Assembly: GCA_013373015.1 (NCBI GenBank)
Contig: JABXIQ010000047.1
Coordinates: 1 to 46,529 of the forward strand
Origin: Kangiellaceae bacterium
GTDB taxonomy: Bacteria > Pseudomonadota > Gammaproteobacteria > Enterobacterales > Kangiellaceae
Length of the DNA: 46,529 nt
Direction of reading: 5' to 3'
Part shown: in pieces, positions 23,866 to 30,356 of the stretch
Layout: each line of letters starts with the position of its first letter
Numbering within the stretch: position 1 is the first letter of the stretch
Made by a program: the position numbers and the translations under genes
The notes under the pieces: model-generated
The model's database searches: none
What the model was told of the DNA's origin: nothing
What the model saw: the letters and a program-made list of their open reading frames with translations, nothing else

Positions 23866-26649
23866 ATGGATAAAGCATACGATCCGCAAGCTATTGAACA
23901 AAATCTATATCAGCAATGGGAACAGCAAGGCTATTTTGCCTCTGAAAATCATAATGCCGAAGGACAAGACAGCTATTGTATTATGATACCACCACCTAAT
24001 GTCACGGGTAGTTTGCATATGGGTCATGCTTTCCAGCATACAATTATGGATGCGCTAACCCGCTATCATCGCATGAAAGGTGATAATACTTTATGGCAAC
24101 CAGGTACTGATCACGCGGGAATAGCGACGCAAATGGTGGTTGAGCGATTATTGGATCGTGATGGGATCAGCCGCCACGACTTAGGTCGTGAACAATTTAT
24201 TGATCGCGTTTGGCAATGGAAAGAAGAGTCGGGCGGCACTATTACGCGACAAATGCGTCGTTTAGGTGATTCATGCGACTGGTCACGCGAAGCCTTTACC
24301 ATGGATGATGATTTATCTGGAGCCGTGCTAGAAGTTTTTGTACAACTCTATGAAGAAGGGTTGATCTATCGTGGTCAACGCTTGGTTAACTGGGATCCAA
24401 AACTACTGACGGCAGTTTCAGATTTAGAAGTTGAGTCTGTAGAAGCCGATGGACACTTATGGCATCTACGCTATCCGCTTGCAGATGGCTCAGGCCATTT
24501 AGTGGTTGCTACAACGCGCCCAGAAACCATGTTGGGCGATACTGCGGTAGCAGTCCATCCCGATGACGAACGCTACCAACACTTAATTGGAAAAATGATC
24601 AAACTACCGTTAACCGATCGTGAAATTCCAATTATTGCCGATGATTATGTTGAAAAAGACTTTGGCTCTGGTTGCGTAAAAATTACGCCAGCCCACGATT
24701 TCAACGATTATGAAATGGGAAAACGTCATGATTTACCCATGATCAACATTTTAACACCAACCGCTTTTATTAATGATAACGCACCTGATGCCTATCGCGG
24801 ACTTGAGCGTTATGAAGCGCGTAAAAAGATTATCGAAGATTTTGAAAATTTAGGTCTTCTAGAAAAAATTGAACCTCATAAGCTCAAAGTACCTAAAGGT
24901 GATCGCTCAGGTGTAGTTATCGAGCCCTATTTAACCGACCAATGGTATGTGAAAATTGTTCCTTTGGCAGAACCAGCCTTAGCAGCGGTCAAAAATGGAG
25001 ATATTAAATTTGTTCCTGAAAACTGGTCAAATACTTATTACCATTGGATGGAAAACATTCAAGATTGGTGTATTTCTCGTCAATTATGGTGGGGACATCA
25101 AATTCCAGCTTGGTATGATAACCAAGGAAATGTCTACGTTGGCCGTAATGAGCAAGAGGTTCGAGAAAAGCATCAGTTAGGTGATATTGATTTAACTCGT
25201 GATCAAGATGTTTTAGACACATGGTTTTCATCTGCATTATGGCCATTTGCAACGTTGGGTTGGCCAGAAGAAAAACCTGAGTTAGAAACCTTTTTACCTA
25301 CCAATGTGCTTGTGACTGGCTTCGATATCATTTTCTTCTGGGTTGCCAGAATGATCATGATGGGTTTGAAGTTTACTGACAAGGTTCCTTTCAAAGAAAT
25401 TTACATCACAGGCCTTATTCGAGATGAGCAAGGCCAAAAAATGTCAAAATCAAAAGGTAATGTACTGGATCCAATTGATATTATTGATGGTATCGACCTT
25501 GAAGCACTCGTTGAAAAACGAACATACGGTATGATGAACCCTCAAGCTGCAGATAAAATTGCCAAACGCACTCGTAAGCAGTTCCCAGATGGTATCGCTG
25601 CTTATGGCACAGACGCTATGCGCTTTACTTTCTGCGCCATGGCTTCAACTTCTCGTGATATTAATTTCGACTTAAACCGTGTAGAAGGCTATCGCAATTT
25701 CTGTAATAAAATTTGGAATGCTGCGCGTTATGTTCTGATGAACACTGAAGGACAAGATACGGGCATAGAAAATGATGAAAAAATATTTAGCGTAGCCGAT
25801 CGCTGGATCCAAAATGAATTACAGAAAACCATTCAAGAATTTGACAAAGCTATTGCCGGTTATCGTTTTGATTTGGCTGCCAATACTTTGTATGAATTTA
25901 CTTGGAACACCTATTGTGATTGGTATTTAGAGCTTTCAAAACCTATATTATATGGTGATGAATATAGCGCGAAGGAAAAGCGCGGTACCCGCTATACCTT
26001 GGTAAATATTTTAGAACAACTGATGCGCTTATTACATCCATTTATGCCATTTATCACGGAAGAAATTTGGCAAAAAGTTGCGCCGTTAGCTGGTATATTC
26101 TCTGAAAGCAAGCAAAGCATTATGCTGCAAAGTTTTCCAAAAGCCGATGACACATTGAAAGATAGTGAAGCTGAAGCAGATATTGATTGGTTCAAGAAAG
26201 TAATGTTAGGCGTACGCAATATTCGTGGTGAAATGAACATTGCCCCTGGCAAACCTCTTAATGCGTTGTTCAGAAATGGTTCAAATGAAGACAAACAGCG
26301 TTTAACTGACTACGAAAACTTTTTAAGCAAACTGGCAAAACTGGACAACATTGAATGGGTGGAAGCGAATCAAGAAACCCCCATGTCTGCAACCGCTCTA
26401 GCAGGCGATATGGAAATCTTAATACCAATGGCAGGGTTGATTGATGTTGAGCAGGAAGTAGCACGACTGAGCAAAGAGTTAGAAAAGGTGGAGAAAGACC
26501 GCCAACGTACAGCTGGTAAACTTAGCAACCCTAATTTTACAGACAAAGCTCCCGCAGCGGTAGTTGATAAAGAAAAAGCTAAGCTAGCGGAAATGGAAAA
26601 TACTTTGAATAAAATTCAGCAGCAAATTTCTGAATTAAATTCCTTATGA
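23866..26649 (+). CDS. valS: Valyl-tRNA synthetase
   Basis: ValS charges tRNA-Val in the cytoplasm. The 927-residue class I synthetase shows the HIGH-type motif [15 protein letters not shown] (about 43-57), the editing (CP1) domain with [15 protein letters not shown], the KMSKS motif in [14 protein letters not shown], an anticodon-binding domain with [15 protein letters not shown], and a C-terminal coiled coil beginning near [20 protein letters not shown]. Length is typical. Its last codons overlap the start of the next small lipoprotein gene by four bases (ATGA), so they may be co-translated. Confidence 0.98.
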
Positions 26650-27038
26650 AAAAGCTATTAACATGTAACTTCACAATGATCAGCCTAGCACTGCTACAGT
26701 CTTGTAGCAGTGCTAACACAAATACACCTCTACCAATTCCGCAAATAACAAAACCAACGAAACACTTAGGCTTTTTAAAAATCAACTCTAAAGAAACAGA
26801 CGAAGTCTGCTTTGAGCTTACCCAAGGCCAAGCATTGTCTTATAAGATCACATCAAGCTCACCAACACTATTTAATATTCACTATCACAAAAATAACAAT
26901 ACTCGCTATCCTGTCGCAAATCAGGAAACAACAATCAACTCAGCAACAATAGCAGTTGAAGATTCTGCTACCTACTGCTTAATGTGGCAAGGAAGAACCA
27001 ATAACACTTCCATTGAGTACGAATATACTATTTACTGA
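26646..27038 (+). CDS. Small lipoprotein after valS
   Basis: The 130-residue product has a lipoprotein-like signal (LALLQSC) and a mature part of about 110 residues. The mature part is beta-rich, with two cysteines ([11 protein letters not shown] and ATYCLMWQG), reading like a single small sandwich domain similar to pre-peptidase C-terminal modules. I recognise no named family. It overlaps valS by four bases (ATGA) and ends one base before the convergent lysC-lysA gene. A 13-base perfect hairpin lies within the signal-peptide codons. Confidence 0.72.
26686..26715. repeat. Perfect 13-bp inverted repeat inside lipoprotein signal codons
   Basis: Arms 26686-26698 and 26703-26715 are perfectly complementary around a four-base GTCT loop. 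No T-run follows, so it is not an obvious terminator. It would put a strong stem 40 bases into the lipoprotein mRNA. Confidence 0.7.
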
Positions 27039-27039
27039 T

Positions 27040-29631
27040 TCACTCAGAGCTTGCTATACAGACCTCTTCTGCTGGTGGTCGCATATTATAATGGTTAGAC
27101 ATCACATAACCATAAGCACCTGCATTATCAATTAAGATCAAGTCACCCTCTTGAGTCACTGGAAAAGGTATTTCTACACCAAGTTTATCAGTACTTTCGC
27201 AAATTGGGCCAACCACTGTCGCTAACATATTTTTTTCATCATTAAATCGCGTCAGATTATGAATGGAATGATAAGAACCATAAAGTGCTGGACGCATCAA
27301 AGAATTCATTCCAGTATTTAATCCTACATAATAATAGTTTTGCTTATGTTTAACCTGCGTCACTTTAGCCACTAAAATGCCAGCATTAGCAGTAATGTAT
27401 CGACCTGGCTCTATCCAAAATTGATATTGAGGATACTGAGTCTTTATCGAATCAAGTGCCTTATCAATGTCTCGCATGGTTAGCTCAGTTTGTTGTTCTC
27501 GCTCTTTGATGCCAAAGCCTCCACCCAAGTTTAAGAACTTTACTTTTGGAAACTTTTGTGCCGTTTCTGCTAATAATTGAGCATGCTCTGCCCAATGCTC
27601 ATTAGTAAGAATTCCGCTACCCGCATGAGCATGTAAACCATTAACGGTAATATTATATTGCTCTAGTATTGGCTTTATAGTTTCTAATTCATAAATCGGG
27701 ATACCAAACTTTGAAGTTGATCCTGCCGTACGCACGTTTTCATGATGACCTTTACCGATGTCGGGATCAATCCGCAAAAAGACCTTGGAGTTTGCAAAGT
27801 CCTCAGCCCAATTTTGTAGCGGGTAAATGCTATCTAGCGATAAGTTAATGCCAAGTTGTATAGCTTGCTGATACTCTCTTCTCTGTGCAAAATTTGGTGT
27901 AAAGTAAATACGACTTCTATCCAATTCTGGATATTTACCGATAATAGTATTTACTTCATGGATTGAGACTGTTTCAAAACCACAGCCTTGCTCATACACC
28001 ATATCAAGAATCTGAGAATTATTATTTGATTTCATGGCAAAATATATTTGCTCAACTGATTTAATGGATTGTAGGTTAAGCACATTATATTTAACCTTAT
28101 CAAGGTTATAGATATACGCACTTTCCTTGTCCTTCATCAAACTTTCAATTGTTGGAACTTTCTGCTGCCACCACTTTTCTTCTATAGAAATAAACTCCTG
28201 CTGCTTTAACTCCTCAGCTGTCGGACCTAATATTTCGCTATTTGGATTATTGCTAATCAGCAGCTCATGCAACGATGCAATAACTTTATTACAATGTTCA
28301 TCATCAATAACAAAAGTTAAATTCAAATCAGATGCAGCTTGTGAAAGCAAATACACTTTATAGGTTTCGAAAATAGCCAATGCAGGTGCAATTTTATGTA
28401 ATATTGCTCGTACATTTTTTCCAACAATTGAAACCGCTGAGCAGTTACCTAATATTTTCACTCTACAGAAACTTGATAATTCGTCACTGAGTTTACTCAA
28501 AGTTTTACTGTGCACCACTTGAGTTAAACTGTCTAAACTCACCGTCACATTGGTTTCTGAAGTAGAGACTAAATCTACCGAAACTTGATATTTTTTGAAA
28601 ACAGCGAATAAATCTGCTAAGAAACCTGCCTGCTGCCACATCCCTTGGCTTTCCATAGAAATAAGAGTAATGCCCTGCTTTGCAGTAATAGCTTTAATCA
28701 ATCCAGCTTTCGTTTCGAGCTCATGGATGATAGTACCTTCAATTTCAGGTTCGATCGTTGAACGTATATATAAAGGTATTTTTGTTGTTTTTAATGGTCG
28801 TATAGTTCTTGGATGTAAAACCTTCGCTCCTGCCGAGGCCATTTCTTGAGCTTCATCATAATCTAAATGTTTTAATAAGCGAGCATTTTGAACTTGGTTT
28901 GGGTTTGCGGTAAAAACCCCAGGAACATCCGTCCAAATTTCTAAGCGCGATGCTGAAATTTTTGCGGCGAAATTAGCAGCAGAAGTATCAGAACCACCTC
29001 GACCTAACAATAAAGTCTCTCCTGCTTCATTACTACCTATAAAACCTTGAGTAATAACCAATTGTGCACTTTTAACGGTTTCTAGTAATTGATGATCTTT
29101 TTGATATCCGCAACTAACTGCTAGATAATTATCTTCACTCGGTCCATCCGATAGCATAAACTGTCGAGCATCTAACCAAAACGGATGCGGATTACAATGC
29201 TCTTTAAGATAGGCTTGTCCAATCAAGGTTGCCCATAACTCACCTTGAGCCATAATCACAGCCTTAATACGATCACTTGCTTCGCCAAGTAAACTTACAC
29301 CATCAATTAAACGCCTTAAATGTTGATAATGCTCATCCAAGTAATTATCTTGTAAACCAAGTTCTGCAAGTAATACTTTGTGCTTGTTGATAATATCATC
29401 TAGCGCAGATATATATTTATCAGAACCTACGATAAGAGCCTCATCAATTAGCTCTTCTAACTTATTTGAAACACCACTTAAAGCTGAGTGCACAACAAAT
29501 ACTCTTTGACCATGCTCAAGTTTGTTTTTAATTATGCAGACAATATTTTCCCAATTAGCTTTAGATGAAACACTAGTTCCGCCAAACTTCAACACTTGCC
29601 ATTGATTCACATCATTATCACGATTACTCAT
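27040..29631 (-). CDS. Bifunctional aspartokinase / diaminopimelate decarboxylase (LysC-LysA fusion)
   Basis: One 863-residue polypeptide carries the first and last enzymes of lysine synthesis. Residues 1-290 are aspartokinase (KFGGTSV at 15-21, GRGGSDTSAA at 210-219), followed by regulatory ACT domains to about 460 that normally sense lysine. The C-terminal part (about 490-863) is PLP-dependent DAP decarboxylase: Lys534 in FAMKSNNNS should bind PLP, with HAHAGSG, NLGGGFGI and the CESTD active-site motif following. Such fusions are known in Xanthomonas relatives. The ATG at 29631 has GAGG six bases upstream; earlier in-frame starts reach into the leader. Transcription passes an apparent lysine attenuator. 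Confidence 0.95.
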   Translation of the reverse strand: MSNRDNDVNQWQVLKFGGTSVSSKANWENIVCIIKNKLEHGQRVFVVHSALSGVSNKLEELIDEALIVGSDKYISALDDIINKHKVLLAELGLQDNYLDEHYQHLRRLIDGVSLLGEASDRIKAVIMAQGELWATLIGQAYLKEHCNPHPFWLDARQFMLSDGPSEDNYLAVSCGYQKDHQLLETVKSAQLVITQGFIGSNEAGETLLLGRGGSDTSAANFAAKISASRLEIWTDVPGVFTANPNQVQNARLLKHLDYDEAQEMASAGAKVLHPRTIRPLKTTKIPLYIRSTIEPEIEGTIIHELETKAGLIKAITAKQGITLISMESQGMWQQAGFLADLFAVFKKYQVSVDLVSTSETNVTVSLDSLTQVVHSKTLSKLSDELSSFCRVKILGNCSAVSIVGKNVRAILHKIAPALAIFETYKVYLLSQAASDLNLTFVIDDEHCNKVIASLHELLISNNPNSEILGPTAEELKQQEFISIEEKWWQQKVPTIESLMKDKESAYIYNLDKVKYNVLNLQSIKSVEQIYFAMKSNNNSQILDMVYEQGCGFETVSIHEVNTIIGKYPELDRSRIYFTPNFAQRREYQQAIQLGINLSLDSIYPLQNWAEDFANSKVFLRIDPDIGKGHHENVRTAGSTSKFGIPIYELETIKPILEQYNITVNGLHAHAGSGILTNEHWAEHAQLLAETAQKFPKVKFLNLGGGFGIKEREQQTELTMRDIDKALDSIKTQYPQYQFWIEPGRYITANAGILVAKVTQVKHKQNYYYVGLNTGMNSLMRPALYGSYHSIHNLTRFNDEKNMLATVVGPICESTDKLGVEIPFPVTQEGDLILIDNAGAYGYVMSNHYNMRPPAEEVCIASSE

Positions 29632-29688
29632 ACCAACCTCATCATGCTCTACCATTGCATATACTCTCAAGCTAAATTATTCAGGCAT

Positions 29689-29719
29689 AAAAAAACCCGC
29701 AGAGGTTATCCTGTGCGGG
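29689..29719 (-). terminator. Attenuator terminator (3:4 helix) upstream of lysC-lysA
   Basis: On the minus strand CCCGCACAGG (29719-29710) pairs with CCTCTGCGGG (29705-29696), with one C-C mismatch and a four-base loop, followed by seven T (29695-29689). It lies before the gene it would switch, about 57 bases upstream of the ATG. Bases 29716-29709 of its first arm can instead pair with TTCTGTGC at 29756-29749, forming an antiterminator. Confidence 0.85.
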
Positions 29720-29741
29720 CTTTATTAAAGCTTTATATTAT

Positions 29742-29816
29742 TCACCAAGCACAGAACCACGGGACACATTTCTTAAGTGTCTTTTTAATTGGTTTCTTTG
29801 CTTGGCTTAATGTCAT
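29742..29816 (-). CDS. Putative lysine-rich leader peptide controlling lysC-lysA
   Basis: This 24-codon frame (ATG at 29816, TGA at 29744-29742) encodes a peptide starting MTLSQAKKPIKKTLKK and ending CVPWFCAW. Six of its first sixteen codons are Lys, in three pairs at codons 7-8, 11-12 and 15-16. It lies between a promoter and a terminator upstream of lysine-synthesis genes, the arrangement of classical attenuator leaders. Its codons 4-9 contain segment 1 (CCAAGCA, 29805-29799; AACC, 29794-29791) and its last codons contain segment 2 (GGTTCTGTGCTTGG, 29758-29745). The Shine-Dalgarno sequence is weak, which is the main doubt. It is too short for standard gene callers. Confidence 0.78.
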   Translation of the reverse strand: MTLSQAKKPIKKTLKKCVPWFCAW

Positions 29817-29849
29817 ATTCAGTAATGATTTGCTAAATTTATTAACAAC

Positions 29850-29877
29850 AGTCTAATTTGAGCACAATTTTTGTCAA
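29850..29877 (-). promoter_or_regulatory. Promoter of the lysC-lysA attenuator transcript
   Basis: On the minus strand a perfect TTGACA (29877-29872), a 16-base spacer and TAGACT (29855-29850) give a sigma70-type promoter. Initiation near 29843 would leave about 27 bases before the leader-peptide ATG. It sits in the gap after tadA ends at 29889. Confidence 0.65.
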
Positions 29878-29888
29878 ATGAAATTTAG

Positions 29889-30356
29889 TTATTTAACCCG
29901 CTTGCGCTTAAAAAATGTTTTTAGCTGAGCGCTACACTCTTCTTGTAATAAGCCAGACTGTAACTCACATTGATGATTGAAGCTGGAATTATCCAATAGA
30001 TTAAGTACCGAACCAGCGGCACCCGTACGCGGATCGGCTGCCGCATAAACCACCCTAGTCACACGAGCATGCACTAATGCCATAGCACACATAGCGCAAG
30101 GTTCTAAGGTCACATAAAGGGTGGTATTGACTAAACGGTAGTTTTGAACTTGTTGACCAGCATCTCGCAAGGCTATTATTTCAGCATGAGCAGTCGGGTC
30201 ATGGGTTAAAATAGGCTGATTAAAACCTTCACCAATAATAAGGTCATCTTTGACCAAAACCGCACCAACAGGAACTTCACCATTATTCTCAGCGATAGCA
30301 GCAAGCTCGAAAGCCCGCTGCATAAATTGATGATCTTGTGATGAGAACTTATCCAT
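29889..30356 (-). CDS. tadA: tRNA-specific adenosine deaminase TadA
   Basis: TadA converts A34 to inosine in tRNA-Arg(ACG), an essential wobble modification. The 155-residue protein has the deaminase zinc motifs HAE (His57, Glu59) and PCAMC (Cys87, Cys90). It lies downstream of guaB-guaA, as is common. The ribosome site is weak; the start at 30356 gives a normal length. Confidence 0.96.
   Translation of the reverse strand: MDKFSSQDHQFMQRAFELAAIAENNGEVPVGAVLVKDDLIIGEGFNQPILTHDPTAHAEIIALRDAGQQVQNYRLVNTTLYVTLEPCAMCAMALVHARVTRVVYAAADPRTGAAGSVLNLLDNSSFNHQCELQSGLLQEECSAQLKTFFKRKRVK

Follow-up and report, generated by a model that had tools for sequence, protein, structure and literature searches.

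Genes of lysine synthesis are usually assigned to the lysine riboswitch, to T-boxes or to protein regulators, and classical attenuation by leader peptides has been described for several amino acids. Can a lysine gene also be controlled by a ribosome that reads Lys codons? The question is raised by a locus in a stretch of 46,529 nucleotides (the window) from a Kangiella-like gammaproteobacterium, where tadA and a fused lysC-lysA gene flank a candidate attenuator on the minus strand. The original prediction, made from the letters of the window, read the intervening DNA as a Lys-codon attenuator with a leader peptide. Here, we describe a computational analysis of that proposal. We consider it very probable that the lysC-lysA fusion is controlled by ribosome-mediated transcription attenuation, with charged tRNA-Lys as the signal that is sensed. 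The basis for this reading is the sequence of the leader, its conservation, its alternative pairings, covariation in one hairpin, and the fit between partner strands in helices 1:2 and 3:4.

The leader and its parts

The putative sigma-70-like promoter, the 24-codon frame with its three Lys-Lys pairs, the helices, the terminator and the run of seven T were all found on the minus strand exactly where they had been predicted (Table 1). The identification of the downstream gene also held up, with its product scoring 1186 bits against NCBIfam NF006515 (cut-off 802) and carrying the Pfam domains PF00696, PF22468, PF02784 and PF00278.

Table 1. Positions of the leader elements and of the flanking genes, in the numbering of the window
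Feature	Position	Strand	Basis
lysC-lysA fusion, bifunctional aspartate kinase/diaminopimelate decarboxylase	27040..29655	minus	NCBIfam NF006515, Pfam
lysC-lysA start codon, ATG (GAGG precedes the alternative)	29655, or alternatively 29631	minus	
Terminator T run, seven T	29689..29695	minus	sequence
Segment 4, terminator 3' arm, CCTCTGCGGG	29696..29705	minus	fold, sequence
Segment 3, CCCGCACAGGA, common to antiterminator 2:3 and terminator 3:4	29709..29719	minus	
Leader peptide frame, ATG...TGA, 24 codons, MTLSQAKKPIKKTLKKCVPWFCAW	29742..29816	minus	frame list; Lys-rich counterparts in relatives
Segment 2, GGTTCTGTGCTTGG, common to 1:2 and 2:3; final leader-frame codons	29745..29758	minus	
Leader hairpin GACAC/GTGTC, arms 29781-29777 and 29767-29763	29763..29781	minus	covariation
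Segment 1, inner part, AACC; partner GGTT 29758-29755	29791..29794	minus	fold, sequence
Segment 1, CCAAGCA; partner TGCTTGG in segment 2, 29751-29745	29799..29805	minus	fold, swap test (18 leaders)
Putative promoter, -10 hexamer TAGACT, spacer 16	29850..29855	minus	sequence
Putative promoter, -35 hexamer TTGACA	29872..29877	minus	sequence
tadA, upstream neighbour, outside the attenuator	29889..30356	minus	NCBIfam NF008113

The leader frame is unusual within the window. Its Lys-Lys pairs stand at codons 7-8, 11-12 and 15-16, and among the 298 ATG-initiated frames of 15-40 codons on the two strands no other contains three such pairs. Lys makes up 6.0% of the long frames of the window, and the probability of at least six Lys in 23 is about 0.002. 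The RNA is also unusually stable: over the 153 nt of the leader the folding energy is -43.1 kcal/mol (z -4.9), and none of 200 shuffles does as well. Other signals stand out less. The scan for promoter-like sites found seven in the window, the leader promoter being one of them, against 5.0 in shuffles, so that this promoter is not significant by itself. A simple terminator scan of the window did not list the leader terminator, probably because its stem is interrupted by a mismatch, flanked in the fold by 10 and 3 pairs. A covariance model of the leader finds a single copy in the window's own genome (E 1.3e-16), plus two hits at E 0.5 and 0.8.

Three helices compete in this RNA. Helix 1:2 joins an early stretch of the frame to its final codons, and inside it sits a hairpin that has Lys codons, namely 15-16 in the window, as part of its loop. 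In helix 2:3 the last part of the frame pairs with the terminator's 5' arm (TTCTGTGC with GCACAGGA in the window), and helix 3:4 is the terminator itself (CCCGCACAGG with CCTCTGCGGG). The enclosed hairpin, GACAC/GTGTC, had no place in the original prediction, and it supplies the best covariation evidence for the element (see below).

Conservation within the genus

The genus was sampled with 20 genomes, the window's included; loci L005-L015 come from contigs that recur among the later loci and were counted just once. The lysC-lysA fusion is present in 19 of the 20, and every one of these 19 fusions has in front of it a Lys-rich short frame, a terminator, and 1:2 and 2:3 helices that overlap. 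Conservation in relatives had been named at the outset as a means of checking the idea, and the result favours classical Lys-codon attenuation. In the remaining genome (G031, stated completeness 99%) no full-length lysC-lysA match was found, just separate weaker ones, which could reflect either loss or an assembly gap.

Eighteen of the leader frames are complete and span 24-32 codons, while the start of that at L018 is cut by the end of its contig. Lys accounts for 114 of the 477 readable codons in the 19 leaders, and 18 of the 19 contain Lys-Lys; examples of the peptides are MKTQFIVKKHSKKALKKRVLFCCG (L019), MNLNCIQAKKSVKKTLKPSVWISCVW (L029) and MNLSTCNKKRTKKVSKKDAKANYCG (L033). Where Lys codons are kept, AAA and AAG interchange. 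The outer parts of the leader vary in length and sequence, and what is kept is an open frame, the Lys codons and a stop beside segment 2. An intrinsic terminator lies between the leader frame and the structural gene in all 19 cases, with at least six T immediately after its stem, and mutually exclusive 1:2, 2:3 and 3:4 helices, with the stop codon within or beside segment 2, are likewise predicted in all 19. In L030, L031 and L033, segment 2 is a perfect GCGGGU and the terminator is shorter; just segment 2 and the inner terminator differ, the segment 3 and 4 cores being as in the others.

Comparative tests of the helices

The original prediction asked for compensatory changes in the three helices. 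Such changes are clearest in the newly recognized hairpin, which is paired in all cells of the alignment in 19 of 19 leaders and shows changes on both sides at four of its five pairs, in 14 cells. When hairpin and terminator were shuffled together, 3.1 both-side-changed cells were obtained and none of 500 shuffles reached 14; slid controls were at most 64% paired. Two other counts discriminate less, 19 of the 500 shuffles matching the number of both-side-changed pairs and 205 matching the pair types, in a test whose structure was derived from the same alignment and in which the terminator pairs are nearly invariant. The RNAalifold consensus contains the hairpin and the terminator and lacks 1:2, partly because the position of segment 1 differs between groups.

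A partner-swap test, which is alignment-free, was used for the remaining helices, with 2000 permutations and no correction for relatedness of the sequences (L018 is excluded where n=18). For helix 1:2, no permutation of partners was as good as the cognate strands (0 of 2000, n=18), and an outer helix, in which the first codons pair with bases past the stop, gave the same result (0 of 2000, n=18). For helix 3:4, a single permutation in 2000 was as good (n=19). Helix 2:3 behaved differently, with 337 of 2000 permutations as good across the 19 leaders; segment 3 hardly varies, and it is because of this near constancy that covariation support is lacking for 2:3. The cognate partner was the single or joint best in 3 of 18 leaders for 1:2, 6 of 18 for the outer helix, 11 of 19 for 3:4 and 4 of 19 for 2:3. 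Of the compensatory changes looked for, those in the hairpin and the cognate fit in 1:2 and 3:4 are in evidence, and 2:3 is predicted in all 19 leaders with a swap result that chance could give.

Other observations bear on 2:3. Within each of the 19 leaders the best partner of segment 3 is segment 2, and at the segment 2 site just 0-7 of 300 shuffled leaders pair with segment 3 as well. Relative to the window, L032 has segments 2 and 3 changed together at one pair, from T-A to G-C. As for the fold of the leader as a whole, some leaders without their terminator are just modestly more stable than shuffles, which did as well in 15 of 200 cases for L016, 12 for L018, 9 for L029 and 8 for L028.

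Promoter spacing and the start of translation

One weak point recognized from the beginning was the missing Shine-Dalgarno sequence, and it is real: no Shine-Dalgarno-like motif was seen in any of the 18 leaders, the window's included, that are readable far enough upstream. These leaders were anchored by a search for the motif TTGAC; in the 17 readable leaders other than the window's, it precedes the ATG by 34-36 nt. The ATG follows the best -10-like hexamer by 6-8 nt in 17 of the 18, the window being the exception with its ATG 33 nt past the putative -10 box. The hexamers of L030 and L031 match the consensus at just 3 of 6 positions.

Transcription usually starts about 7 bases past a -10 box. 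Considering the 6-8 nt spacing, the AUG of these 17 leaders would lie at or near the 5' end of the transcript, and translation is probably leaderless in most relatives. A leaderless start would also be the probable explanation for the missing Shine-Dalgarno motif, the window excepted.

Proposed mechanism and a model of the switch

How would such a leader regulate lysC-lysA? From the features above we infer use of the promoter, translation of the frame, stalling of the ribosome, the 2:3 switch itself and a response to lysine. RNA polymerase would start just upstream, and a ribosome would translate the short Lys-rich frame. When lysine is ample, the ribosome would run through to the stop codon at segment 2's edge and cover that segment, leaving segments 3 and 4 to pair and transcription to terminate ahead of lysC-lysA. 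When lysine is short, a ribosome stalled on the Lys codons would open segment 1 and the Lys-codon hairpin; with segment 1 open, 2:3 would pair, the terminator would be blocked and lysC-lysA would be transcribed. If the frame is not translated, 1:2 would form and the result would again be termination.

The switch was modelled thermodynamically, on RNA lacking segment 4 and on the assumption that the ribosome's footprint ends 13 bases beyond the first base of the codon at which it is stalled. With the modelled ribosome on Lys codons of the central cluster, 0.66-0.89 of the 9-base segment 3 core is predicted to pair with segment 2, in all 19 leaders. With no ribosome, the modelled 2:3 value stays at or below 0.35 in 17 of 19; in L019 (0.74) and L029 (0.69), 2:3 is favoured even then. 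The value of 0.0 for a ribosome at the stop arises because segment 2 is masked in the model. A stall at one of the earliest Lys codons does not always favour 2:3, with predicted values of 0.01 at codon 2 of L025, 0.52 at codon 9 of L023 and 0.58 at codon 2 of L028.

What the leader senses, and alternative explanations

The same model predicts 2:3 for stalls at most early codons, many of them not Lys, and the specificity for lysine must therefore depend on which codons are present. This leaves some room for a leader that senses more than lysine, for example lysine together with methionine (both aspartate-derived) or the general speed of translation. The leader of L032 (from genome G030), MNCIFVNAQIAMKQMMKMSKQDVPIVCAR, points in that direction, having among its 29 codons three isolated Lys, no Lys-Lys, and five Met with the start included; its specificity may have moved or broadened. 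Lys outnumbers Met, however, in the remaining 18 leaders, and besides the shared kinase the fusion has a lysine-branch enzyme only. We regard sensing beyond lysine as improbable for the element as a whole, though it is the strongest of the competing ideas.

The lysine riboswitch often controls lysine genes, and the leader is structured, so one might suppose that a lysine-binding riboswitch, or another ligand-sensing RNA, controls the terminator and that the Lys-rich frame is incidental. The lysine riboswitch family (RF00168), however, has no match in any of the 20 genus genomes and none at gathering score in the window, while the control search was working, being positive in 4 of 14 known genomes that included E. 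coli and B. subtilis. At gathering score, no Rfam family matches the leader of the window, whose sole match is a tRNA elsewhere, or the leaders of six relatives. The riboswitch hit that would have spoken against the original prediction was not found in these searches. It is also difficult to see how an incidental frame would keep its Lys codons and its stop at segment 2 while the outer leader varies. Control by a ligand-binding RNA is accordingly very unlikely.

The classical leader families fall short of their thresholds as well. The matches to the leader, in bits, are 25.4 for His_leader (RF00514), 21.8 for Thr_leader (RF00506), 17.0 for Leu_leader (RF00512) and 14.9 for Trp_leader (RF00513), the best of them, 25.4, standing against a gathering score of 49. 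The same permissive scan gave 26.3 for the trpB motif on the leader and 25.3 for His_leader on the opposite strand, and since a match on the wrong strand scores as high, these sub-threshold matches mean little.

Could the hairpin instead be a mere terminator of the upstream tadA, with lysC-lysA starting separately downstream? It does lie between the two genes, and may stop tadA transcripts too. Against this, in each of the 18 leaders whose sequence reaches far enough upstream, the terminator is preceded by a putative promoter and a Lys-rich frame, and a pairing that overlaps the terminator as an antiterminator is found in 19 of 19. Moreover, leader and terminator persist, still adjoining lysC-lysA, in L030, L031 and L033, where tadA is about 660-1250 bases away. 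The chance that tadA termination is the whole story is slight. Slighter still is the chance that the short frame serves to make a functional small protein rich in Lys and is no regulatory leader, since the recurrence of KKALKKR and of a final CG in many relatives has to be set against remaining parts that are variable, leaders that differ from group to group, and hairpin arms that sit in the same stretch and covary.

Distribution beyond the genus

A run of the leader covariance model over the order (295 genomes) gave strong hits, at E 1e-12 or better, in 17 genomes, all of them members of the genus. No lysine leader was recognized by eye among the weak hits opened outside the genus (L064-L073, L075, L076). 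Some of these were reassigned on inspection, L068 as a Trp leader, L070 as a Leu leader and L071 perhaps as a Thr/Ile leader. Five others, all from one genus of the order (L064-L066, L072 and L073), are regions before a thrA-like gene; in each, a terminator-like repeat precedes the gene, which starts MRVLKFGGTSLANA, and no obvious run of Thr or Ile codons occurs in the listed short frames.

Fusions of lysC-lysA were also screened directly, by seeking Lys-rich frames in about 400-500 bases upstream and judging terminators by eye; this screen covered lysC-lysA only, and its negatives are non-exhaustive, since the scripted terminator finder was too strict and missed the terminator of L085. Other genera of the family contributed seven fusions, six with a readable upstream region (L038 being the other), and no comparable Lys-rich leader with terminator was seen in those six. 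Among 369 genomes sampled from the class there were 13 fusions besides the window's, one of them with both leader and terminator (L085, in genome G596). A sample of 398 genomes from the phylum gave nine fusions besides the window's, five of them new, and none had both. At L081 (genome G476, of another family), a terminator-like repeat with a T run precedes lysC-lysA, together with a short frame that by eye is not Lys-rich.

The G596 locus led to a second genus, in which two of three genomes have a Lys-rich leader and terminator at lysC-lysA. The peptides are MRSMTSKCKRVKQEADSKKLFPAR in G596 and MIGMCAKRKVEKKEVSKKLGSAR in its genus-mate G676, and in both genomes a GC-rich terminator follows, the loop of the hairpin consists of Lys codons, and a GCCGG/CCGGC pairing takes the place of 2:3. 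The third genome, G677, has a weaker version in which Lys-Lys is gone from the hairpin loop. Because the two genera are distant and no leaders were found in between, the simpler guess is that the second-genus leader has an origin separate from that of Kangiella. Searches for similar DNA found no match to the L085 region in plasmids and none to the window leader in phages.

On balance, we favour the wider view that lysine belongs to the amino acids regulated by classical attenuation, that a mostly leaderless Lys-codon attenuator replaces the lysine riboswitch throughout Kangiella, and that a comparable attenuator evolved independently at lysC-lysA in one or more further genera of gammaproteobacteria.

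Relation to known systems

The proposed element resembles the classical His, Thr, Leu and Trp attenuators in having a leader peptide rich in the regulated amino acid, the 1:2, 2:3 and 3:4 arrangement and an intrinsic terminator. It differs from them in that its control codons are Lys, the transcripts of most relatives here are probably leaderless, and the Rfam gathering scores are not reached. With the lysine riboswitch (L-box, RF00168), which governs lysine genes such as lysC elsewhere, it would share the regulated pathway; the riboswitch, however, senses lysine by RNA binding and has no match in the 20 genus genomes.

Further parallels come from other groups. A leaderless attenuator is described for rnTrpL (trpL) of Sinorhizobium meliloti, whose transcript begins with the leader AUG; its codons are Trp and its host is an alphaproteobacterium (PMC10117765). 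The same source proposes a leader peptide with three Lys codons, encoded by the SEP5 sORF of Sinorhizobium, which precedes a gene for aspartate dehydrogenase. In SEP5, six Thr codons dominate and the gene is another one, and the passage on it gives neither a terminator nor alternative helices; this Thr-rich frame is nevertheless the nearest precedent we have seen (PMC10117765). For the lysine operons of Actinobacteria, a passage in another source reports that no conserved RNA structures were observed upstream (PMC1262725).

The suggestion that a lysine leader peptide of this kind may be new has so far survived, for none of the matches listed in the open-access PMC literature is a lysine leader-peptide attenuator, and our claim of novelty is limited to that literature. 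The mechanism appears to be classical and the amino acid new. A lysine version would mean that classical attenuation is open to another amino acid, and would add another case in which one sensing device has been swapped for another at the same pathway. It would also provide a compact natural sensor of lysine starvation. Considering its probable leaderless start, Kangiella would be well suited for asking how attenuation operates without a Shine-Dalgarno sequence.

Other observations in the genus

Further short frames were noticed in the genus. L093 (G029) and L095 (G031) have the frames MKRYFNLHQLLNKNWEISPV and MKRYNNLHQLMKNTWEINPA with a pair of hairpin-like repeats behind them, of which the latter has a T run; no frame of more than 60 codons is listed just downstream within the stretch read. 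In L092 (G019) and L094 (G032) there are Trp leaders, MKTLYVKNIWWWHVT, ending IWWWHVT; judged by eye, the ATG of the L092 leader lies about 7 bases past a promoter-like -10 box. Downstream of each, another short frame rich in Trp, with HQWWWIC or HQWWWSC at its end, and another GC-rich repeat are found, an arrangement which suggests that both loci carry tandem Trp attenuators.

In the window itself, a 130-codon frame with a lipoprotein-like start is convergent to lysC-lysA (26646-27038, plus strand). It has no Pfam or NCBIfam match, and 16 of the other 18 loci examined in the genus have relatives at 28-42% identity.
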